Shown: positions 6,163 through 27,547 of the stretch, piece by piece
Layout: every line of letters starts with the position of its first letter
Position numbering within the stretch: position 1 is the first letter of the stretch
Source: Solobacterium moorei
Lineage (GTDB): Bacteria > Bacillota_I > Bacilli_A > Erysipelotrichales > Erysipelotrichaceae
Length of the DNA: 64,000 bases
NCBI RefSeq assembly: GCF_036323475.1
Contig: NZ_AP028934.1
Coordinates: forward strand, 1,798,001 to 1,862,000
Reading direction: 5' to 3'
Program-made: the position numbers and the translations under genes
Notes under the pieces: generated by a model
What the model saw: the letters and a program-made list of their open reading frames with translations, nothing else
The model's database searches: none
What the model was told of the DNA's origin: nothing

Positions 6163-7083
6163 CTAGTCTTTATGTGCAGTCCCTATGATTTCATCAAGTG
6201 AAGTAATTCCTAGTTTTTTCATAACTATAGGTAGCTCTTCTATGATTTCTTTACATGCCATAGGATTGATTAGATTTGCGGCTCCAATCTGTACGGCAGT
6301 AGCCCCTGCCATCATCATCTCAATGACATCTTCTGCACTTGAGATACCACCAATGCCAATGATGGGAAGATTTGTTGCCTCATATACTTCATATACCATT
6401 CTTAACGCAACTGGAAAAATTGCAGGCCCTGAGAAGCCACCTTTTTTATTGGCAATGACTGGTTTTCTACGATTGATATCAATGCGCATTCCCATCAGTG
6501 TATTGATGAGTGAAATACCATCTGCTCCACCTTCTTGTGCTGCACGTGCAATTTCTTTGATATCTGTTACGTTTGGACTAAGCTTCATATAGATAGGTTT
6601 TATTGTGACTTCTTTGATTTTCTTTGTTAGTTCTCTAACATTATCCGCATTTGTACCAAATGCCAGTCCTCCATGGTCTACATTTGGACAACTGATATTG
6701 ACCTCGATAATACCAACGTTATCAACCTTATCCATTTCTTTTGCCAGTGTTACATATTCCTCTACTGAAAAACCACTGATATTTGCAATAACTGGTTTTC
6801 GATAGATCATCTCTAAATCTTTGAGTTCTTTCTGAATTACATTTTCCATGCCTGGATTTTCAAGACCTACAGAGTTAATCAATCCAGAATAACATTCCGC
6901 GATTCTAGGTTGAGGGTTTCCCTTACGTCTTTGAACAGTAGTTCCCTTGATGGATATTGAGCCTAAGATATTGATGTCATAAAAGTCTACATATTCTTTG
7001 CCAAAGCCAAAGGTGCCACTAGCTGGAATCACTGGATTATCTAGAATTAACCCACTTAGATTCACTTTTGTATTTACTTCCAT
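6163..7083 (-). CDS. pyrD: Dihydroorotate dehydrogenase, class 1B catalytic subunit
   Basis: This 306-residue FMN-dependent TIM barrel oxidises dihydroorotate to orotate. The N-terminal NPVIPASGTFGFG, the catalytic-loop segment VNISCPNVDHGG with the class 1B Cys near residue 130, and the phosphate-binding IIGIGGISSAEDV are visible. The next upstream gene encodes the PyrK flavoprotein, which defines the NAD-linked class 1B enzyme. The two frames overlap by 10 bases, so their translation is probably coupled. The protein is cytoplasmic. Confidence 0.96.
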   Translation of the reverse strand: MEVNTKVNLSGLILDNPVIPASGTFGFGKEYVDFYDINILGSISIKGTTVQRRKGNPQPRIAECYSGLINSVGLENPGMENVIQKELKDLEMIYRKPVIANISGFSVEEYVTLAKEMDKVDNVGIIEVNISCPNVDHGGLAFGTNADNVRELTKKIKEVTIKPIYMKLSPNVTDIKEIARAAQEGGADGISLINTLMGMRIDINRRKPVIANKKGGFSGPAIFPVALRMVYEVYEATNLPIIGIGGISSAEDVIEMMMAGATAVQIGAANLINPMACKEIIEELPIVMKKLGITSLDEIIGTAHKD

Positions 7084-7799
7084 AACAACTCCTTATGTAA
7101 AAGAACTGGTCCTTCTTTACAGATACGCTTATTTCCTACAAGTGTTTCGCATGAACAACCCATACAGCCTCCAAAGCCACATGCCATGCGTGCTTCAAAG
7201 CTATATTGACCATCCTGCGCTTTACGATAAATCGCTTCTAACATACGTTCAGGTCCACAGGCACAAACATACTCTGCTTGATCAAACCCATTTGTCACAA
7301 AGCCCTTTTCTCCATAGGAACCATCTTCTGTATACACTGTGACTTCTAAACCGAGTTTTCTAAATTCTTCATCATAGAAAACTTGATTCTTCTCTCGAAA
7401 TCCAAGAATGATTCTTGGCTTCTTTCCCGTTTCAGCCAATTTTTTCGCTAAGCCATACATTGGAGGAACACCTACTCCACCACCAATCAATATCGATGAA
7501 TTAGGAATCCAAGTTAGGTTGTAGCCATTTCCCAAAGGCCAAAGAATGTCTAATGCAATTCCTGTTTCCATTTGGCTTAATGCCTTTGTGCCTTTTCCTA
7601 CTACCTTGTAGATAATGGTTAAACTTTCATCATTCCAATCTGCGATGGAGATTGGTCTTCGTAAATAGAAGCCCTCAATTTTGATATTGATAAACTGACC
7701 TGGTACTAAAGCTTTTAACTTCTCAGATTCTGGACCAGTTGGTTGTAATATCATCTTGTATGTATCCAGCGCTATTTTTGTATTCTCAATGATTCTCAC
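7074..7799 (-). CDS. pyrK: Dihydroorotate dehydrogenase electron transfer subunit
   Basis: PyrK carries FAD and a [2Fe-2S] cluster and moves electrons from PyrD to NAD. The FAD-binding RRPISIAD motif is near residue 50 and a glycine-rich NAD-binding ILIGGGVGVPP near 102. The cluster ligands are in CGFGGCMGC plus a later Cys (RICKEGP) near the C terminus. Length 241 is slightly shorter than the usual 250-260 but all motifs are present. It overlaps pyrD and follows pyrC after 20 bases. Confidence 0.95.
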   Translation of the reverse strand: MRIIENTKIALDTYKMILQPTGPESEKLKALVPGQFINIKIEGFYLRRPISIADWNDESLTIIYKVVGKGTKALSQMETGIALDILWPLGNGYNLTWIPNSSILIGGGVGVPPMYGLAKKLAETGKKPRIILGFREKNQVFYDEEFRKLGLEVTVYTEDGSYGEKGFVTNGFDQAEYVCACGPERMLEAIYRKAQDGQYSFEARMACGFGGCMGCSCETLVGNKRICKEGPVLLHKELLWK

Positions 7800-7819
7800 T
7801 CTTTTCCCTCCACAATGAT

Positions 7820-9067
7820 TTATCTTTCTTTCTCGTCTTGATAGACGAGTTTTCCATCTACGAATGTAGCGATGACTTTTCCTGTAAGATGCATACCCTC
7901 AAACGGCGTCGATCTTCCTTTGGTAAAGAATTCTTCTGGATTGACTTGCCAACTAACATCTGTATCAACAACACAGATATCTGCGATTTCTCCATTTTCG
8001 ATATATCCACCATCTAAACCAAATCGTTTTCTAGGATTGACACTCATCAGTTCAACGAGTCGTTCAAAGGAAATCACATTCTTCTTTACAAGTTCTGTAT
8101 AAGATACCGCAAAGGATGTTTCTAGTCCCACAACTCCAAAGGATGACTTATCAAAGCCTTTCGACTTTTCTTCTAAGCTATGTGGTGCATGGTCTGTCGC
8201 AATCATATCGATAGTGCCATCGACGATAGCTTCTAGGATTGCTTTTTGATCCTCTGGAGACTTGATTGGAGGATTCATTCTGAAGTTTCCTTCATGCTTG
8301 ATTGTATCGGCATTAAAGGCAATATAATGTGGTCCCGTTTCGCAAGTTACATCGATTCCTCTTGCCTTTCCTTTTCTTACCGCATCTAAAGTTTCCTTCG
8401 CGGAGACATGACAAATATGATATTTACAACCGGTTTTAGCGGATAGTTCGATATCTCTTGCGGCTTGTACGCTTTCACTTGCGGAAGTTGTACCAGTGTA
8501 TGGAATTGTATTGAGACTTTCATCTTCACAATGGGCAGAGATGATCTTGCCTAAGCTTGCGACTTTCACCATCGCATCTTCCATCGTAAAGTCTGCTTGT
8601 ACACCAACACCATCATCAGAGAAACCTGCTACATGGTCAGCCATCTCATCCATTTTGGATAACATACCACGACCTTTTTGATTTTCTGTGATAGCACCAA
8701 AAGGCACTACTTTGATTACTGCATCTTTTTCAATGATATCGAGCTGTTGTTTGAGACTTGCATAATCACAAGGAGGCGGATTTAAGTTAGGCATCGTAAA
8801 TACTGTTGTGAATCCTCCATGTGCAGCCGCCATTGAACCTGTGCCGATCGTTTCTTTATAAGAAAAACCGGGCTCACGGAAATGTACATGTACATCAACG
8901 AAACCCGGTAAAATATATTTATTGTTGAAATCAAAAACAACGTCGTCACTTTGAACAATGTCTGAAACATCAAATGGGACAAGAAGTCTATCACCAGAGA
9001 TAGCGATATCCATCTTCTCAAAACCCTTTCGCGTAAAGACTGTTGCGTTTCTTAAGATTGTTTTCAT
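7820..9067 (-). CDS. pyrC: Dihydroorotase
   Basis: This 415-residue amidohydrolase cyclises carbamoyl aspartate to dihydroorotate. The metal-binding VHVHFREPG is near residue 60 and the catalytic ATDHAPHS near 291, with His ligands in AHCEDE and CHVSA. It is a type I zinc-dependent enzyme by length and motifs. It is the first gene of the operon, with a -35/-10 pair 40-70 bases upstream and an AAGGGG ribosome site. carAB, pyrE, pyrF and pyrR are not in the window, so they must be elsewhere or replaced by salvage. Confidence 0.96.
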   Translation of the reverse strand: MKTILRNATVFTRKGFEKMDIAISGDRLLVPFDVSDIVQSDDVVFDFNNKYILPGFVDVHVHFREPGFSYKETIGTGSMAAAHGGFTTVFTMPNLNPPPCDYASLKQQLDIIEKDAVIKVVPFGAITENQKGRGMLSKMDEMADHVAGFSDDGVGVQADFTMEDAMVKVASLGKIISAHCEDESLNTIPYTGTTSASESVQAARDIELSAKTGCKYHICHVSAKETLDAVRKGKARGIDVTCETGPHYIAFNADTIKHEGNFRMNPPIKSPEDQKAILEAIVDGTIDMIATDHAPHSLEEKSKGFDKSSFGVVGLETSFAVSYTELVKKNVISFERLVELMSVNPRKRFGLDGGYIENGEIADICVVDTDVSWQVNPEEFFTKGRSTPFEGMHLTGKVIATFVDGKLVYQDEKER

Positions 9068-14318: not shown

Positions 14319-14912
14319 TTAGATACCAATAATTCCAAAAATATCTTTCACTTTATCGTAGATATTCATCTTTTCTGCGTATGTATACAACTTATTAAAA
14401 TCTTTATTACGATAACGAGCATATCTTGTTATTATTTTCGAAAATAACTCAGCCTCGACTTTATTTCTATTTTTTACAAAATCACAAACCGTTCTTTCTA
14501 AATCATAGACATTTACCTTGTTTCCATAAGTCGTTTTACATTGAGCAATACCTAGTTCATATGTATCTTTATTCACATAATGAACTCTTTTATCACGTTG
14601 AATGCGGCTTGCATTATATCCTTTGTATACTGTTACTTCTAGTTCTGATGGAATGATATCTGTAAATTGAAATAGATACAAAGCAGATACATACGAGTAG
14701 ATTGCAACTTTATACTTATTTTGAAAGAAATAATACTCGTCATAATCACCTTTTGTTGAAAGATATACTCCTCTTTCTTCGCGAACTAATTCTCCTGCTT
14801 CAACCATTCTAGTTAAATATATAGTTGGGATATTAGAATTCACTAGTTCACCACTTGTAATAAATCCACCCATTTTTTCGATCTTTTCTCGTATCTTCTT
14901 TTTATAATCCAT
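14319..14912 (-). CDS. AbiEi-type antitoxin/transcriptional regulator, orphan
   Basis: This 197-residue protein matches the AbiEi antitoxin pattern. An N-terminal winged helix (GGFITSGELVNSNIPTIYL, then LVREERGVY) is followed by an alpha/beta domain with YSYVSALYLF and the YDLERTVCDFV segment. AbiEi proteins repress their own operon by binding inverted repeats, and normally pair with an AbiEii nucleotidyltransferase toxin. No toxin gene follows; the next gene is the PLP enzyme. The start at 14912 is chosen because GGAGG lies five bases upstream; the ATG at 14924 overlaps that site. A perfect 13-bp inverted repeat covers its promoter. Confidence 0.85.
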   Translation of the reverse strand: MDYKKKIREKIEKMGGFITSGELVNSNIPTIYLTRMVEAGELVREERGVYLSTKGDYDEYYFFQNKYKVAIYSYVSALYLFQFTDIIPSELEVTVYKGYNASRIQRDKRVHYVNKDTYELGIAQCKTTYGNKVNVYDLERTVCDFVKNRNKVEAELFSKIITRYARYRNKDFNKLYTYAEKMNIYDKVKDIFGIIGI

Positions 14913-14926
14913 TTTTGCCTCCATTT

Positions 14927-18697: not shown

Positions 18698-18717
18698 CTT
18701 GGGAACAGCGTAAGTTA
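18698..18717 (+). repeat. Recombination repeat R1, cassette D start
   Basis: CTTGGGAACAGCGTAAGTTA, encoding WEQRKL; an exact inverted 20-bp copy lies at 24895-24914 in hsdS. Confidence 0.9.
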
Positions 18718-19192
18718 GGAGAATTAGGCACTACATTTACTGGTTTATCTGGTAAAAAAGCTTCCGACTTCGGTCATGGAGAAGCTTCATTTATTACATA
18801 TATGAATGTTTTCTCTAATCCAGTTGCGAATCCTAATATGGTAGATAATGTAGAAATTGATCCAAAGCAAAGAGAAGTTGAAATAGGTGATGTTTTCTTT
18901 ACTACATCTTCTGAAACACCTGAAGAAGTTGGAATGTCTAGTGTTTTAAAGGAAAAACATGGTGTTACATATCTTAATAGTTTTTGCTTTGGCTTTAGAC
19001 CTACGGTTAAATTTAATTTAGATTATCTTGCGTTTATGTTTAGGTCTGAATTTGTCAGAATACAAATAATAATTTTGGCACAAGGTATTTCGAGATTTAA
19101 TATTTCAAAAATCAAGATGATGGATATTGATATTCACGTACCGAGTATTGATGAACAAATAGCTATTGGGACATACTTTATTGAACTAGACA

Positions 19193-19219
19193 ACCTTATC
19201 ACCCTTCATCAGCGTAAGC
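19193..19219 (+). repeat. Recombination repeat R2, cassette D end
   Basis: A 27-bp sequence encoding LITLHQRK; its exact inverse is at 23841-23867 at the distal end of hsdS, and 25-26 bp copies lie at 20188-20212 and 24382-24407. Confidence 0.92.
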
Positions 19220-19232
19220 ATTTGTGGCCTTT

Positions 19233-20159
19233 TTAACTCAGACTTGAAAGAGAACGCATTACAATATCAATATCTTTATTTTCTAGTTCATTTATAATAT
19301 GAAGATATGTTTTCTGTGTAGTAGTCATGCTTGAATGTCCAAGTCTTCTAGCTACACTTGCAATTGATACTCCTGCAAACAATAGTAATGATGCGTGAGT
19401 ATGTCTCAATCCGTGAATAGATACAATTGGAATATTTGCTCCTTTACAGTGACGTTCCAGAGAATCATTTATACTTGAATTAAAAACTCGACTCTTTATA
19501 AAAATTGGTTCATCTTCTGGTAATCCCTTAATTAATTCAGAAAACTGGACAATAAGCTGCCAGTCAATTTGAATTTTTCTAACAGAAGACCTATTCTTTG
19601 TAGGCAGAAAACCTGTACAGCTTTTATAATCCCAAGTTTTGCTGATAGAAAGCGATTGGTGCTGAAAGTCAAAATCTTTTGGTGTGATTGCCAGTGCTTC
19701 TGAAAATCTCATACCTGTTTTCGCCACTAGAAGAATAAACCAATCCCAACTTATTTCTGTATTTAAATTAAGATGTGATATAAGTTTATGTAATTCAAAT
19801 TGATTAAGATATTTTATCTTTTTAGGACGTGGAGTTTTGCCTTTAATAATAGCCTTTCTTGTAGGATCTCGTTCTATCAATCCTTCGTCAACAGCATCCA
19901 TTATGGCACCTTTCAACTGATGATGAAAATCCATCGTTGTTTGTCTTTCATGAACCTCTGCATAGCTATTAAGTAATTGTTGGTAAGATAGTCGGTTAAG
20001 GTCACACATTCTCATTCCCGGAGCAAGACGTTCTAACCAAGTTTGTGTTAGTAAATATTTATCCATCGTAACTTTCCGAATTGCTCCTGACTTATAAACT
20101 TTTATCCATTGTGAATAATACTCATAAAATAAATCTGTCTCTTTAATATTATTTAGCAT
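19233..20159 (-). CDS. Tyrosine recombinase of the hsdS-shuffling type
   Basis: The 308-residue protein is an integrase of the XerCD/Cre superfamily. An N-terminal SAM-like domain (about 10-95) is followed by the catalytic domain with Arg in GMRFSEAL near 150, HGLRH near 247 and HSSMTTTQKTYLH, with the nucleophile Tyr near 284. It sits between two silent hsdS cassettes of opposite orientation inside a type I restriction locus, the arrangement of recombinases that invert specificity domains (the pneumococcal ivr/CreX type). It is not accompanied by phage genes, so a prophage origin is unlikely. The start overlaps the end of cassette C by seven bases. Confidence 0.9.
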   Translation of the reverse strand: MLNNIKETDLFYEYYSQWIKVYKSGAIRKVTMDKYLLTQTWLERLAPGMRMCDLNRLSYQQLLNSYAEVHERQTTMDFHHQLKGAIMDAVDEGLIERDPTRKAIIKGKTPRPKKIKYLNQFELHKLISHLNLNTEISWDWFILLVAKTGMRFSEALAITPKDFDFQHQSLSISKTWDYKSCTGFLPTKNRSSVRKIQIDWQLIVQFSELIKGLPEDEPIFIKSRVFNSSINDSLERHCKGANIPIVSIHGLRHTHASLLLFAGVSIASVARRLGHSSMTTTQKTYLHIINELENKDIDIVMRSLSSLS

Positions 20160-20187
20160 TGAAAATCCTCCTTTTTATGAATATATG

Positions 20188-20212
20188 GCTTACGCTGATG
20201 AAGGGTGATAAG
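20188..20212 (-). repeat. Recombination repeat R2, cassette C end
   Basis: A 25-bp inverse of 19196-19219 plus one base at the inner end; encodes LITLHQRK on the minus strand. Confidence 0.88.
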
Positions 20213-20641
20213 ACTATTAATACTGGTGAAAAATAATGATAATTTATTTCTTTCTTTCTCTTGCACCGGTACTTGAATTACTATGTCGGACATCACATTA
20301 TTCATTAGTTTTGGATTTCCTACATAAGAAACATACGCTTTTGCAGTATTATTTAGTGCTTCCGCTATCATCTGATTAGCCCTTATTTCATTAGATAATA
20401 AAACCCCACAAACATTTGTACAATAGAACTTTCCCTTTCTGTAATTAACAGTTCCTGCATTCGCACCATCAGTAGTCCAAGTAATCGCATCTTCATATAG
20501 GTAGTTACTATAGTATCCCATGAGCCCATTATCTTTTGTCTGTGAAGAATAAACTGGATATGGATTTTTATCTGATTTAGTTGGAATTGTTTGTGTAGCT
20601 GGAAGCACGTAACCACGTGTAATTCTAAACATATTTGAGAC

Positions 20642-20657
20642 CTTACGCTGTTCCCAA
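20642..20657 (-). repeat. Recombination repeat R1, cassette C start
   Basis: CTTACGCTGTTCCCAA, the inverse of the repeat that starts cassette D; encodes WEQRK on the minus strand. Confidence 0.85.
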
Positions 20658-20661
20658 TCAT

Positions 20662-20688
20662 AAAAGAGAGTTAGAAATCTTCTAACTC
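20662..20688 (-). terminator. Terminator after hsdR
   Basis: A perfect nine-pair stem GAGTTAGAA/TTCTAACTC with a three-base loop (20668-20688), followed by UCUUUU on the minus strand. It separates the expressed hsdM-hsdS-hsdR unit from silent cassette C. Confidence 0.8.
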
Positions 20689-20700
20689 CCATTTATGTTA

Positions 20701-23700
20701 CTATTCAATATTAAATCCACCTTCGAAAATAAATCTCCTAAGTAATTTATCTGCCTCAATTCGAGCTTGTCTTTTTGATAGTTCAATTTTCAACCGTTTT
20801 CCCAAAAAATTTCTAGCATCATCAATATCAATAGTATTCATAAGCTCATCGTAGCGACCATATGCATTTATATTTGATTCATCGACATGTAAATTTATCA
20901 ACGCCCGTAATTTTGCTTCATCAATTCCAAGACCAGAAGCAAGCCTATGAATTTGGTCATTATGTGCATTACACATATATAAAGTAATATAATCCCTAAA
21001 TGTCTTGCCGGCTTCAACTGCAATTTTACCTGTTTCGATATCATTCAAGAATAATTTTGCTAGTTTTTGTTCTTCTTGTGTCAAAGATGCAAATGATTTA
21101 TGTAGGTCGTGAATCGCCTTTTCTTTAGCTATGGCATCCCCTTTATTTAGATTAATCATAAATAATTTAAACTTTGAGTTCATATAATCATCATCAATAG
21201 AATCAGTTTGAATCTCGATAATGTGTGTATCTATATCGTATGGTAAACCGCCTTCAATCCTAGTTCCTTTAAAGAGCTCTTTATATCTTTGAACAAGTAT
21301 CAAATAGGTTTTTTCATCAAAGAGTATTTTCTTTGAATAAAAACTTCCGTCAGTATTCTTAAATTCATAAATTGATTTATCCCATGAGAAACCTTGTATC
21401 TTAGCAGAATCAAGATATTGATTTAATTCAGAAAATAATTTTGCAAATTTTTTCTTCCATGAAATATCATCATAATTATGGTCAAAGTCATAAATACCAA
21501 CTGATTCAAATAATTCTACGATTTCTCCATATTTGAAATTCATCTGATCGATATTAATATCAAGTTTATCTACAAATATGCCAAATGGCCTATCTCCCGA
21601 ATATTCTCTAACAGCATTGTCAAGATTTTCTTTCATTGTATGAGGATATCGGTACCATATTATTGTTCCATGCGGTTTATCGCTACCATAGAGTCTATTT
21701 GTCCTTGAAATTGCTTGTATAAAATTCTTCCCTTCAAGTTTTTTATCCAAATACAAAGTATTGATCCATTTCGAGTCAAATCCAGTTAATAATTGATCCA
21801 CAACAATAATGATATTAAGTTGCTCCTCTTTCGAAAGGTTTAGATATGGTTTCTTGTGTGATAATCGCGCACAAACATCTTTTTTAAAACTTGCGTAATT
21901 ACCTATTTCATAAGATTTACCAAACATCTCTTTATAATCAATTAAGATATCTGTTATTCCCTTCATTTTCCAAATTGATTCCTGTGTATTATCATCACTT
22001 GGGTCGAAAATTGCAGTAACTTTTAGGTTATGATTTTTACATTTGAACAATTTATAATATTGCATTGCTTCAGAAATAGAACTTGTCGCAAAGATGGAAT
22101 GAAATAGTGATCCAACACTCCGCACAGTCCAGTGATTAATTATATCGTCTACTACAGCATTCTGGTGTTTTAGTGTTTCGTATTGTGCTTTTGGAATAAA
22201 GTTTTCAATTTCTGTCATCGGGCATTTCTTTTCACCCTTATTCATATAATATAAAAATATTTTTCTTGTCTCTTCTTTAGCCATTGCTCCTTCAACAGTA
22301 GAGCAATTACATTGTTTGAGTGCGACCTTTTCTCTTAGGTCATTATCTTCGAAAGTACAAACTTTATATGGGTCAAACCCAAGAACATTTTTATCTCTAA
22401 TTCCATGAACAATAGTATAGCGATGTAACTCATCACCAAAAATATCCGATGTAACACCATGAGCAGGAGTTCCTGTGAAACCAAAGAAAATTGCATTGGA
22501 AAATGTTTTTTTGATATTTTGATGCATATCCCCTTTTTGGTCTCTATGACATTCATCAATTATAAATACAATATGCTTTGACTGTATTTTTTCTAAGTCC
22601 TTTTGCTTAACATCACTATCTTCTCTAATTCTGCTCATTTTCTGAATTGATGTAACAATTAGCACATCATCAGGAGAATCACTTTTTAGTTTTCCAATCA
22701 AAACATTTGTATCCTCTGTCGCTTGTATTGATTCAGATGGATCAGCAAAATTTCTATAATTAATCAGTGACTGATCACCAAGTTCCACTCTATCAAGTAA
22801 GAAAACAACTTTATCCGCTTCCTTTGAATTTGCAATTAACTGAGCAGCTTTAAAAGATGTCATTGTCTTTCCAGAACCGGTAGTATGCCAGATGTAACCA
22901 CCATGTTGCTCACTTCTTGTCCAATTGGTTCTTAAAACTTTATCAGAAATAGCAGAAGCAGCAAAGTATTGGTAACTTCTCATTACCTTTAGAACCCCAT
23001 CCGAATCATCTGGGATAGTGTAAAATCCTACCATTTCATGTGCCATAGGTATAGATAATAATTTCTTTGTAAAAGCACTCCATTCATTTATTATATCGTT
23101 ATTATAATCTTCCCAATGAAAGTAAAAATTCGAATTAAACTTTCCATCTCTTCCAGGATTTGCATAATAAACAGCCTCCTCAGGATTCATAGCGATAAAA
23201 ATTTGTACTAGTGAAAATAATCCGCTGAAAACACCATTTTCCATGTATTTTTCAATTTGAACTTCAGCTTGAGTAATAGGTACTCCCGTTCTCTTTAATT
23301 CAATATGGAAAAGAGGCATTCCATTAATCAAGAGCATTATATCTCCACGACGTGTAGGATAAACCGTATTATTAGTCTTAAACTTTGGCTGTTCTACAAT
23401 TTGATACCTACTTTTCCCTCCTGCTATCTCTTTTCTATCATAAATTTTAAGGCTTACATTCTTTCCAAAATGTAACTCATCATCTTTGTTATCTCTTGTT
23501 ATAGATACTGTTTTACCATTGATAAAAGTATTTAAAGCTAATGGTGTTCTCAATAAATTTACTTGAGTAATAATCTGTGCCATTTCTCCATCCGTTAAAG
23601 GACAGCCATTAAGAACATCTTTTTCTTTATTGCTATCAAATAAAATATTTGCCCAGTTTTTTATTAAATCTTCCTCAGTAGGATACTTAATAACATCAGT

Positions 23701-23772
23701 TTCCCAACCGCATTCAGACCAAAGCAAATTAACAACAGCTTCTTCAAATTTTAATTCATCATTAAAAGGCAT
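20701..23772 (-). CDS. hsdR: Type I restriction enzyme, endonuclease/translocase subunit
   Basis: The 1023-residue subunit cleaves unmethylated DNA after ATP-driven translocation. The nuclease motif is seen as GDIMLLINGMPLFHIELKR near 145-162. The SF2 motor shows Walker A TGSGKTMTS near 300, DECHR near 406 and FTGTP near 432, and QAISRTNRLYG for motif VI near 690. A helical C-terminal domain follows for complex assembly. Length is normal for HsdR. It starts 15 bases after the hsdS stop codon and is followed by a terminator. The whole locus is AT-rich relative to nearby housekeeping genes, as usual for transferred restriction systems. Confidence 0.95.
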   Translation of the reverse strand: MPFNDELKFEEAVVNLLWSECGWETDVIKYPTEEDLIKNWANILFDSNKEKDVLNGCPLTDGEMAQIITQVNLLRTPLALNTFINGKTVSITRDNKDDELHFGKNVSLKIYDRKEIAGGKSRYQIVEQPKFKTNNTVYPTRRGDIMLLINGMPLFHIELKRTGVPITQAEVQIEKYMENGVFSGLFSLVQIFIAMNPEEAVYYANPGRDGKFNSNFYFHWEDYNNDIINEWSAFTKKLLSIPMAHEMVGFYTIPDDSDGVLKVMRSYQYFAASAISDKVLRTNWTRSEQHGGYIWHTTGSGKTMTSFKAAQLIANSKEADKVVFLLDRVELGDQSLINYRNFADPSESIQATEDTNVLIGKLKSDSPDDVLIVTSIQKMSRIREDSDVKQKDLEKIQSKHIVFIIDECHRDQKGDMHQNIKKTFSNAIFFGFTGTPAHGVTSDIFGDELHRYTIVHGIRDKNVLGFDPYKVCTFEDNDLREKVALKQCNCSTVEGAMAKEETRKIFLYYMNKGEKKCPMTEIENFIPKAQYETLKHQNAVVDDIINHWTVRSVGSLFHSIFATSSISEAMQYYKLFKCKNHNLKVTAIFDPSDDNTQESIWKMKGITDILIDYKEMFGKSYEIGNYASFKKDVCARLSHKKPYLNLSKEEQLNIIIVVDQLLTGFDSKWINTLYLDKKLEGKNFIQAISRTNRLYGSDKPHGTIIWYRYPHTMKENLDNAVREYSGDRPFGIFVDKLDINIDQMNFKYGEIVELFESVGIYDFDHNYDDISWKKKFAKLFSELNQYLDSAKIQGFSWDKSIYEFKNTDGSFYSKKILFDEKTYLILVQRYKELFKGTRIEGGLPYDIDTHIIEIQTDSIDDDYMNSKFKLFMINLNKGDAIAKEKAIHDLHKSFASLTQEEQKLAKLFLNDIETGKIAVEAGKTFRDYITLYMCNAHNDQIHRLASGLGIDEAKLRALINLHVDESNINAYGRYDELMNTIDIDDARNFLGKRLKIELSKRQARIEADKLLRRFIFEGGFNIE

Positions 23773-23787
23773 ATTCTTTCCACCTCT

Positions 23788-24966
23788 CTATATGAACATC
23801 TTGTTCAACATGGATTTCTTTATATTTTGCAGCTTTTCTAGCTTACGCTGATGAAGGGTGATAAGGTGGTCCATATACCAGAAGAAAAAACCTATCTGCT
23901 TCTGCTCGCTGACATTATATGTTGTAATGCAGTTGGCTTCTGCTAAAATACTAAAATATCTTTTATACCCTTCGTTCTGTGGCTTGTACTTTTCTAACAA
24001 CGATAGTAAATAATATCCATCGGTATATTGCTGTCCCTTAACTATGCGAACACCGTCCGTTGCAACAAAAAATGGACGATGTGGTTTATATAGCGACAAA
24101 GTATGGTCACCAAAAATCACTACATCTTTATAATCACCACAAGGTGTTCCATTGGCTAAACCAATGACAGGTTCATTGCCTTGTTGAATAATTTCGTATT
24201 TACCATCCGCTTCCGGCACTTTAAGAAATTGTTTAAACGGAAGTGTTTGGAGTAACTCCCCCAACTTACACTGTTCCCAAGGGTCAGTGAAACCTGAAAA
24301 ACGGATTTCAGGAACGAGTTTGCCATTTTTAGGGAACATCTTATCTAACATCGCTTTTTTAAAAGTTTTTAGCTTTTCTAACTTACGCTGATGAAGGGTG
24401 ATAAGGTGGTCGATGCTTTCAAAAAACTCCCCTATCTTCTCATGTTCAGCTTTTTGAGGCAGCACAACAGGGAAATTCACGAGTATATTTTGATTAAGAT
24501 GTTTTATAGTTCCACCAGTAGCTTTCTGCCCAACATAATCCATCAAAAAAGGTGCCTTCAAGTACTGGAATAAGTATTTACCATCGACATAATCTTCATC
24601 TATTATCTCAACATTAAACACACCTGCATTAAGCGTTGCTGGCAACTCCAAACCTTGAACAAAAGCGACTTTTCCTAATGTTCCGTCCTTGGTAATAAGT
24701 ATACTTCCATTCTGTATTTGTATATGAGGATCCTGATTATATCTTTCCTTTTCGACATAATGACAGGTAGAGTAGTTTATTCTCCCATCATCGAAATCTG
24801 TTCCAGTGATAAGCATATAATCTCCCTGGTCTAAAAACTCTGATGTACGAAGATTTTGCCAACCGATCCTTGCATGCATTGTTGCTATCTCGGATAACTT
24901 ACGCTGTTCCCAAGGGTCAGTAAAACCTGAAAAACGGATTTCAGGAACCATCTTTCTATTCTCCAT
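23788..24966 (-). CDS. hsdS: Type I restriction specificity subunit, expressed copy
   Basis: HsdS sets the bipartite DNA target for both methylation and cleavage. The 392-residue protein is two homologous halves, each opening with VPEIRFSGFTDPWEQ(R/C)KL and closing with HLITLHQRKLEKL, separating target recognition domain 1 (about 22-165) from 2 (about 215-360). The central and terminal HQRKLEKL helices form the spacer coiled coil. The ATG at 24966 follows AAGAGG by nine bases; a GTG at 24975 is an alternative. It overlaps the end of hsdM. All four edges coincide with repeats shared with the silent cassettes, so its sequence is expected to vary between cells. Confidence 0.93.
   Translation of the reverse strand: MENRKMVPEIRFSGFTDPWEQRKLSEIATMHARIGWQNLRTSEFLDQGDYMLITGTDFDDGRINYSTCHYVEKERYNQDPHIQIQNGSILITKDGTLGKVAFVQGLELPATLNAGVFNVEIIDEDYVDGKYLFQYLKAPFLMDYVGQKATGGTIKHLNQNILVNFPVVLPQKAEHEKIGEFFESIDHLITLHQRKLEKLKTFKKAMLDKMFPKNGKLVPEIRFSGFTDPWEQCKLGELLQTLPFKQFLKVPEADGKYEIIQQGNEPVIGLANGTPCGDYKDVVIFGDHTLSLYKPHRPFFVATDGVRIVKGQQYTDGYYLLSLLEKYKPQNEGYKRYFSILAEANCITTYNVSEQKQIGFFFWYMDHLITLHQRKLEKLQNIKKSMLNKMFI
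23841..23867 (-). repeat. Recombination repeat R2, hsdS distal
   Basis: 27-bp exact inverse of 19193-19219, at the end of target domain 2. Confidence 0.92.
24262..24281 (-). repeat. Recombination repeat R1, hsdS central
   Basis: A near copy of R1 with an Arg-to-Cys codon difference (WEQCKL), at the start of target domain 2. Confidence 0.85.
24382..24407 (-). repeat. Recombination repeat R2, hsdS central
   Basis: 26-bp inverse of 19193-19218, at the end of target domain 1. Confidence 0.9.
24895..24914 (-). repeat. Recombination repeat R1, hsdS proximal
   Basis: 20-bp exact inverse of 18698-18717, at the start of target domain 1. Confidence 0.92.
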
Positions 24967-27547
24967 CTTCTTCACCTCTTAGGAGTTTTTTAAATTCTAA
25001 TATACCCTTGATATCATAGTCATTCCCGGTAAGGTTTGAAAGCATTTCAGATAAAGCATTTTCTGATTCATCAATCTGTCGAGATATATCATGCATTGTA
25101 ATTTCGTATTTTTTAGTTAAATATTCAAGTTTCTTTAAATACTGGTTTATAACTTCTTTACCAAGTCCAATAAGTGATTGACACAATGGATCAATCCACT
25201 TTTTCTGTAGTAATTCTCTAACTTCTGTGTCGGAAAGGTTCTCAATCTTTGATATTGTCTCAGACTCGAGGTTCTCCTCCAAATCTTTGATATCCTTTTT
25301 GAGTTTCTTCATTCTATTATTAATATCATCAATTTTTATAATGATACTTTCATAGGAACCATCCTCAAAAATTGCACCATTTTTTTGTTCTTTTTTCAAT
25401 TTTGAGAAAACAACATTAAGTTTTTTAGACACTACTTCTCCATCATCATCTACGAGTTCTGCTTTATCATTAGGATCGATTGCATCAAATAATTCATCCT
25501 TTTCATTCTTTTCAGAATCCAAATTTGAAATCAGATTTTCAAGTTTACTTTTTTCTTCTTTAAAATAAATTGCCTGAATTAGTTCGAATGGTAATATTCT
25601 GCCAATCCAACCTTCCTGTTTTTCATATAATTCATTTGTTTTACTATTTTTCTTTATTACCATCTTTGGATCAACTGCTCTAGCAGCCAATATGCCATCT
25701 TTTTGAAGAATCTCTAAATCTAAAGATATTGTTGTCCAATTATCATCAAAAATCTGATATGCACTATAATAATCTACCAATGGTATTTTACGTATAATCT
25801 TCTTCAGTTCTTCTGCTATTACAGACTCTTCCCTAGCAATTATTACTTTAGAATAATTATCAATTAACCTACTTGAAAGATACGATGGAAATGTATTAAA
25901 TGCTGTTTTACATTCATCTAAATAAAACTTAACCTCTTTATTTTTTAACGTAACCTTTCTAATATCATCAGTAATAATTTGTGAGTATGGAATTTCACTG
26001 TCTGCAAATAACTCTGATTTCAAAGAAGGGAATGAACTCCACAATTGGTTTAATTCCACTAATTCATTGTTAGGTATTCCACCGAACATTGTTGCATAAA
26101 TATCCCACTTCTCTTGTGATTCGCTTGAATCCACGTAGCGAGGAATATTTAGATTATAATCATTTTCTTCTATCTCTTTTTTCTCAACTAATCTTGAGTA
26201 ACCATCTATAGTTTCCCTGTTAATAGCAGTATCAACTATTTTTCGAACATCTTGTGCTCTTAATTTATTCTTATTTCCATCTTTAGCAAATCCTTTTGAA
26301 GCATCAATAAATAACACGTCGTTTGTATTTCTTTGCTTCTTAAGAATAATTATTATTGTAGGAATTCCTGTACCAAAGAACATATTTGCAGGAAGACCAA
26401 TTATAGTTTCTATATTGCTTCTTTCAATTAAATTTTTTCTTATAATTCCTTCATCACCGCCTCTAAACAAAACACCATGAGGCATAACAATTGCCATAAT
26501 ACCATCTGACTTGAGATGATATAAGTTATGAAGTAGAAAAGCATAATCCGCTTTTGATTTCGGTGCAATGCCATAGTCATCGAATCTTTTATCATTATCA
26601 GCATCATCATTCTTCCATGATTGTGAATAAGGTGGATTTGAGCAGCAACCATCAACAAAAACAGGATAGTATGTACGTTCCTTATCATTCTCATCAAAAA
26701 ATGGCCAATCATTAACAAGTGTATCTCCATTTCTAACAATAACATTATCAGGTAATATATCATGCATAATTAGATTCATTCTTGTAAGGTTATACGTCTC
26801 TAGTATTAATTCTTGTGCATAGTATTTTATTTTATTAGGATTATCAACATATCTAGCTACTGATTTACCAATGTTAATAAGTAATGAACCTGAACCAGAA
26901 GTTGGATCGTATATACTAATCTCATTTCTATCCTTTAAATGATTAGCTATTATTTCACTCATTATGATAGATGCTTCATGTGGTGTATAAAACTCTCCAG
27001 CTTTTCCCGCATTAGCCGCAAAATTCTTTAAAAGAAATTCATAAACAAAACCTAATACATCATAATCTTGACTTCCATCAACCGGAATTTGTTGAATTAG
27101 ATTAAGAAGTTTTCTTATAGCTTTTGTTCTTTCTGAATCACCAGTACCAAAATCATTTAGTCCACTATTAAGTGCATCAAAAATTGAATCATAAACTTTC
27201 CTATAATTAGATCCAATGTGTCTATTAAATGCTGACAATGCTGTTCGAACATCTGCAATTGTAAAATCAGATCCCTGATTAATCCAATATGAGAACAAAT
27301 TCTTATTTTCAATAAAATAACCTATATTATCCTCACAGTTTTTTACAGTATCTTCATCATCTTCTGTTAATTCACTAAAACCTTCATCAAAATATAGTTT
27401 TTCTTTTAAGTACCTTTCTTCTTTTTCAGATAAATACTTATAGAAAATCAAGCCAAGCATATAGTCCTTATATGAACTTGCTGAAACCTTTCCTCTTAAT
27501 TCATTTGCACCTGCCCAAATTTTTGATGCTAATTCTTGCTTATTCAT
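24956..27547 (-). CDS. hsdM: Type I restriction system methyltransferase subunit, extended form
   Basis: HsdM methylates adenine in the target set by HsdS. The N-terminal helical domain (about 1-130), the SAM-binding motif in YDPTSGSGSLL near 220 and the catalytic NPPY near 304 are present. At 863 residues it is much longer than classic HsdM (about 500-550): the methylase core ends near residue 480 and a further 380 residues follow, rich in Lys/Glu coiled coil (NNRMKKLKKDIKDLEENL near 760). The start overlaps the stop of the upstream XRE gene by four bases, and hsdS overlaps its end, so the set is one operon. Confidence 0.94.
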   Translation of the reverse strand: MNKQELASKIWAGANELRGKVSASSYKDYMLGLIFYKYLSEKEERYLKEKLYFDEGFSELTEDDEDTVKNCEDNIGYFIENKNLFSYWINQGSDFTIADVRTALSAFNRHIGSNYRKVYDSIFDALNSGLNDFGTGDSERTKAIRKLLNLIQQIPVDGSQDYDVLGFVYEFLLKNFAANAGKAGEFYTPHEASIIMSEIIANHLKDRNEISIYDPTSGSGSLLINIGKSVARYVDNPNKIKYYAQELILETYNLTRMNLIMHDILPDNVIVRNGDTLVNDWPFFDENDKERTYYPVFVDGCCSNPPYSQSWKNDDADNDKRFDDYGIAPKSKADYAFLLHNLYHLKSDGIMAIVMPHGVLFRGGDEGIIRKNLIERSNIETIIGLPANMFFGTGIPTIIIILKKQRNTNDVLFIDASKGFAKDGNKNKLRAQDVRKIVDTAINRETIDGYSRLVEKKEIEENDYNLNIPRYVDSSESQEKWDIYATMFGGIPNNELVELNQLWSSFPSLKSELFADSEIPYSQIITDDIRKVTLKNKEVKFYLDECKTAFNTFPSYLSSRLIDNYSKVIIAREESVIAEELKKIIRKIPLVDYYSAYQIFDDNWTTISLDLEILQKDGILAARAVDPKMVIKKNSKTNELYEKQEGWIGRILPFELIQAIYFKEEKSKLENLISNLDSEKNEKDELFDAIDPNDKAELVDDDGEVVSKKLNVVFSKLKKEQKNGAIFEDGSYESIIIKIDDINNRMKKLKKDIKDLEENLESETISKIENLSDTEVRELLQKKWIDPLCQSLIGLGKEVINQYLKKLEYLTKKYEITMHDISRQIDESENALSEMLSNLTGNDYDIKGILEFKKLLRGEEDGE

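Follow-up and report, generated by a model that had tools for sequence, protein, structure and literature searches.

The type I restriction-modification locus of the window (the whole stretch of 64,000 nucleotides of Solobacterium moorei DNA analysed) is very probably a working, recombinase-driven specificity shufflon of the pneumococcal ivr/tvr kind. Four mutually distinct target domains (TRDs), two in the expressed hsdS and one in each of the silent cassettes C and D, are bracketed by the same repeats, R1 and R2, and a tyrosine recombinase is encoded between the cassettes. Reassortment of the domains would provide up to 12 ordered two-domain HsdS subunits, switching methylation together with restriction specificity.

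Organization of the hsd locus

Gene families were assigned via curated Pfam and NCBIfam models, and the locus displays the following features.

24956–27547, minus strand: hsdM, type I N6-adenine methyltransferase subunit, 863 aa (TIGR00497, 319 bits, over the cut-off; PF02384; PADLOC MTase_I, 1092 bits; NPPY motif)
23788–24975, minus strand: hsdS, expressed specificity subunit with TRD1 and TRD2, 395 aa (PF01420; PADLOC Specificity_I, 359 bits)
20701–23772, minus strand: hsdR, restriction subunit, 1023 aa (TIGR00348, 328 bits, over the cut-off; PF18766, PF22679, PF12008, PF04313)
20666–20690, minus strand: terminator-like hairpin directly 3' of hsdR (fold z-score −4.4)
20189–20657, minus strand: silent cassette C, consisting of R1, target domain and R2 (PF01420, 57 bits)
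19233–20159, minus strand: tyrosine recombinase of the Phage_integrase family, 308 aa (PF00589, 75 bits; Shine-Dalgarno AAGGAGG upstream)
18699–19236, plus strand: silent cassette D, consisting of R1, target domain and R2 (PF01420, 27 bits; domain reading frame)

The genes hsdM and hsdR and the expressed hsdS constitute a complete type I system, arranged in the order hsdM-hsdS-hsdR on the minus strand and followed by the hairpin, cassette C and the recombinase, with cassette D located beyond them on the opposite strand. hsdR therefore sits between hsdS and D, inside the interval that an inversion between hsdS and D would flip. The reading frames of hsdM, hsdR, the recombinase and all four target domains are open, and the catalytic motifs R, HxxR, H and Y can all be read from the recombinase sequence. 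The hairpin at 20666–20690 would stop operon transcription ahead of the recombinase, and a scan for a recombinase promoter gave promoter-like matches no commoner than in shuffled sequences.

The second hsdS sequences are considered silent because D, which is inverted relative to hsdS, begins at R1 without a start codon, while the only ATG of C, which is in direct orientation relative to hsdS, is buried in the terminator hairpin. The apparent open reading frame of C was evaluated as an expressed half-HsdS and rejected, since its ATG lies in the hairpin and no ribosome-binding site was found ahead of it. Comparison of the locus flanks revealed that the ABC permease past hsdM is widespread in the genus, with 18 of 30 having it. 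The flavoprotein next to D was present in only 2 of 30. Elsewhere in the window an AbiEi-type antitoxin is encoded at 14319–14924 on the minus strand (PADLOC, 222 bits; PF13338), and the gaps on either side of it hold no ORF of at least 80 aa as a toxin partner.

Repeats R1 and R2 bracket every target domain

R2 is the 24-bp sequence CTTATCACCCTTCATCAGCGTAAG, of which the window contains four exact copies and no further copy at up to 3 mismatches (0 in shuffles). R1 has the 16-bp core TTGGGAACAGCGTAAG, found as three exact copies and one with a single mismatch, the chance expectation in the window being 0.03. The copies are positioned as follows.

24898–24913, minus strand: R1 of TRD1, exact
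24382–24405, minus strand: R2 of TRD1, exact
24265–24280, minus strand: R1 of TRD2, 1 mismatch
23842–23865, minus strand: R2 of TRD2, exact
20642–20657, minus strand: R1 of C, exact
20189–20212, minus strand: R2 of C, exact, lying 29 bases 5' of the start codon of the recombinase
18699–18714, plus strand: R1 of D, exact
19195–19218, plus strand: R2 of D, exact

R1 encodes WEQRK at the start of the domain and R2 encodes LITLHQRK at its end. Both are read in an identical phase across all four domains, and therefore any domain may replace any other in frame. In addition, R1 and R2 keep identical codons at synonymous, highly degenerate positions in approximately 60 related loci from several phyla. 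The repeat pairs formed by D with hsdS are inverted and extend over 31 nt (97% identity), 30 nt (97%) and 20 nt (100%; 18698–18717 with 24895–24914), complemented by the R1 of TRD2, which carries mismatches; the R2 of D matches those of TRD1 and TRD2 exactly, over 24 nt and in inverted orientation. The pairs formed by C with hsdS are direct.

Repeat mapping and the PF01420 matches agree with the initial annotation, which had described four target domains bounded by R1 and R2, with C silent on the same strand as hsdS and D silent on the opposite one, and the tyrosine recombinase that it placed between the two is confirmed by PF00589 and is intact. Its description of the D–hsdS pairs as inverted and exact holds for the orientation, but exactness is limited to the cores of most pairs, given the 97% matches and the mismatched R1 of TRD2. 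Similarly, the cassettes and repeats do lie within the proposed span of 18698–24966, but the system is larger, with hsdM running to 27547. C carries the same repeats in the same orientation, as had been stated, but its position just past the terminator had been missed, as had the consequence of its direct repeats, which would call for excision-reintegration or a prior inversion.

Association of the recombinase with R2

Relatives of the recombinase at 70–80% identity occur in many phyla, while it was found in none of 59 other sampled species of the genus. In a phylum sample of 392 genomes, with R2 counted at up to 2 mismatches, the repeat was present in 18 of the 39 recombinase-bearing genomes and in 9 of the 353 others (odds ratio 33, p = 4e-14). 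The corresponding count for genomes that possess hsdS but lack the recombinase was 6 of approximately 178 (p = 5e-11 against the recombinase-bearing set). The peptide ITLHQRK, in any codons, was detected in 1 of 80 hsdS-positive, recombinase-negative genomes. In most relatives, R2-like inverted repeats, often decayed, lie on either side of the recombinase gene. Integrases of temperate Listeria phages (H45–H51) are 46–51% identical to the recombinase over nearly its full length, a likeness that may offer a hint at its origin. Exact copies of R2 were present in only 4 viral contigs.

Model of domain shuffling

In the proposed mechanism the recombinase (19233–20159) would act on the in-frame R1 and R2 that bracket every target domain; its activity and its use of these sites in this strain are predicted, as are any effects on phage or gene expression. 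Inverted pairs (D with hsdS and D with C) would lead to inversion, and direct pairs (C with hsdS and TRD1 with TRD2) to excision and reintegration. The inverting segment includes hsdR, so that a clean domain swap between D and hsdS needs two inversions, and one at R1 combined with one at R2 would trade a whole domain between D and an hsdS slot while restoring the orientation of hsdR. C would enter hsdS through a prior exchange with D or through excision-reintegration. A single inversion between hsdS and D would instead turn hsdR away from the operon and alter the HsdS tail, so that restriction would be off.

A breadth-first enumeration, in which matching sites of opposed orientation could invert the DNA between them, yielded 288 arrangements, among which all 12 ordered two-domain HsdS were reached and HsdS was single-domain in 192. 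hsdR is reversed in half of the arrangements, exactly those in which HsdS has a non-native tail, a short tail beside the recombinase replacing the HsdS C-terminal helix. With hsdR placed in this way, the on/off state of restriction would be tied to the HsdS tail, and the model suggests that the single-inversion intermediates are OFF states. Cells in odd-inversion states are thus predicted to be without restriction and to carry an altered HsdS. The enumeration reproduces the twelve ordered combinations anticipated in the initial annotation. The accompanying proposal that inversion swaps domains stands insofar as two inversions suffice, but a single one flips hsdR and changes the HsdS tail, which had been overlooked.

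Domain exchange and locus layout in relatives

The claimed capacity for shuffling is supported by exchange in strains that possess related recombinases. In Enterococcus raffinosus, whose recombinase is 65% identical to that of the window, TRD1 has been traded between the active and the silent hsdS when strains Er676 and F162_2 are compared, with one breakpoint at R1, the recombinase and hsdRM in place and the middle segment uninverted. Two inversions in succession, or else conversion, would give this outcome. Plasmids of Ligilactobacillus salivarius S35 and S40 (L137/L138) are 100% identical over 18.9 kb except for an exact 2115-bp inversion (6796–8910), which is bounded by 29-bp inverted repeats, adjoins a 55%-identical recombinase and swaps the 5' parts of two head-to-head adhesin/surface-protein genes (GbpC/Spa domain). 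Since the cargo here consists of adhesin genes, the recombinase family also accompanies genes other than hsdS. In Rodentibacter (L055/L073) the block containing the recombinase is reversed against the sequence on either side of it, and one of its ends falls at R1; as L073 has no detectable hsdM, the pair is at best suggestive.

The orientation of the recombinase relative to hsdM varies (30 same, 19 opposite), and hsdR points in the same direction as hsdM in 48 of the 49 non-redundant loci having all three genes. Past hsdR, ten loci have a cassette in the orientation opposite to that of hsdM; hsdR is flipped in none of them. hsdR is therefore almost never flipped in relatives, and odd-inversion states must be rare, short-lived or selected against. 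The lone opposed locus, L084, follows another plan (hsdM T <rec <T <hsdR, with T a target domain and < a reversed element), in which hsdR is convergent to hsdM and hsdS is a single-domain gene of 193 aa. It was considered as a natural hsdR-inverted state and rejected; it is read as a separate fixed layout because its 95% relative L076 displays ordinary chromosome, with no hsdS remnants, upstream of hsdR. A single-domain hsdS adjoining hsdM is also present in L105, with 624 bp between hsdR and hsdM.

The arrangement observed in the window (hsdM T T hsdR T rec <T) is recurrent, as it is found in L028 and L087 and, with the recombinase reversed, in L112. TRD families are common to slot 1, slot 2 and the silent positions: TRD1 of the window is 79% identical to the slot-2 TRD of L110, and cassette C is 71% identical to the active TRD of L107.

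Alternative explanations

Among relatives, 18 TRD pairs are 100% identical within one locus (L122, L121, L103, L102, L075, L050, L046, L039, L020, L016 and L049), and in L039, L049 and L121 the identical TRDs occupy both slots of the active hsdS. Pure inversion is unable to generate such identical pairs. Either another process contributes or some of the assemblies are wrong, and we consider that inversion is probably not all that operates. Excision-reintegration would, by analogy, explain both these pairs and the arrays of 3–5 domains all in one direction that many relatives display, and would give C direct access to hsdS. Exchange might even proceed mainly by excision and reintegration through circular intermediates, as in tvr, or by conversion, with D as an occasional inverted insertion. 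The one-way arrays, the identical pairs and the direct orientation of C, with its tvr precedent (PMC6265443), favour this possibility, as does the uninverted middle segment of E. raffinosus, which conversion would also give. We nevertheless regard it as rather unlikely, in view of the clean L. salivarius inversion beside a member of the recombinase family, the occurrence of the recombinase block in both orientations and the inverted placement of D between inverted repeats of 20–31 bp. Domains also seem, from sequence matches, to travel as units between distant loci. In at least six such pairs (L016/L038, L019/L037, L024/L058, L028/L053, L030/L061 and L033/L058) DNA-level similarity (80–93%) is confined to a single TRD and in most cases stops no more than a few bases from R1 and R2, while hsdM, hsdR and the recombinase show no match of this degree. 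A tentative and somewhat doubtful extension is that R1-TRD-R2 units are the mobile cassettes of a specificity 'integron', whose recombinase would capture, duplicate and reorder domains, some from other genera, and in which the placement of hsdR seen here would couple restriction on/off to the HsdS tail.

The shufflon could also be frozen, formerly active and now with a fixed hsdS, its sites and recombinase persisting in this strain while the enzyme is unexpressed or inactive. A recombinase gene preceded by a terminator-like hairpin and by a silent cassette, with no clear promoter, is what such a state would look like, but the open frames of the recombinase, hsdM, hsdR and the four domains, and the four R2 copies still 100% identical where several relatives have only decayed remnants around the recombinase, make it improbable. 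Far less credible is that the repeats are mere conserved HsdS coding motifs and the recombinase an unrelated integrase nearby by chance. R1 and R2 do encode the conserved motifs WEQRK and LITLHQRK, but they are conserved at synonymous sites, R2 follows the recombinase rather than hsdS itself, most relatives have R2-like repeats around the recombinase gene and strain-level exchange occurs beside members of its family, so that this explanation is already largely refuted.

Comparison with known systems

The recombinase-driven shufflon proposed here adds to a known kind of epigenetic switch, an assignment well supported by comparative sequence evidence, and would extend recombinase-driven shuffling of type I specificity to the Erysipelotrichaceae, for which a literature search combining the family with hsdS returned nothing relevant. 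Type I systems in organisms ranging from mycoplasmas to Actinobacteria and Proteobacteria are repeatedly accompanied by one recombinase family and a 24-bp site that hardly varies, and the two together are usable as a marker for such switches. In the hsd loci of Mycoplasma pulmonis, HvsR reportedly drives site-specific inversion of hsdS, with restriction and modification genes located within the inverting segment; as here, inversion is said to affect restriction as well.

The pneumococcal cod/ivr locus (SpnD39III/Spn556II) combines an expressed hsdS with an inverted silent hsdS, a 15-bp IR1 and the tyrosine recombinase PsrA (PMC7096588, PMC4948785). The locus of the window resembles it in its type I system, inverted silent hsdS sequence, short in-gene inverted repeats and resident tyrosine recombinase, a likeness of locus anatomy. 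In contrast to cod/ivr, the cassettes here are single-domain, R2 measures 24 bp where IR2 and IR3 of ivr measure 298 and 85 bp, and hsdR stands between hsdS and the cassettes, inside the inverting interval. By gene order, therefore, this is not an ivr locus. The pneumococcal tvr locus (SpnIV, with TvrR) employs single-TRD elements in direct orientation, two repeat types and circular intermediates, and an attenuator limits transcription of its recombinase (PMC6265443). Single-domain cassettes, two types of repeat, the direct orientation of C and a hairpin between hsdR and the C/recombinase segment are shared with tvr, whereas D is inverted here and tvr relies on direct repeats and circular intermediates; the interval from hsdR to the recombinase contains no TvrA- or TvrT-like genes. 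The order hsdM-hsdS-hsdR-C-recombinase-D is not described in the consulted sections of the REBASE survey of Atack et al. 2020 (PMC7394358). The survey recognizes invertible type I systems by a 100% identical inverted repeat, 20 bp or longer, that links hsdS to a second hsdS sequence within 30 kb, and the S. moorei locus belongs to the class so defined.
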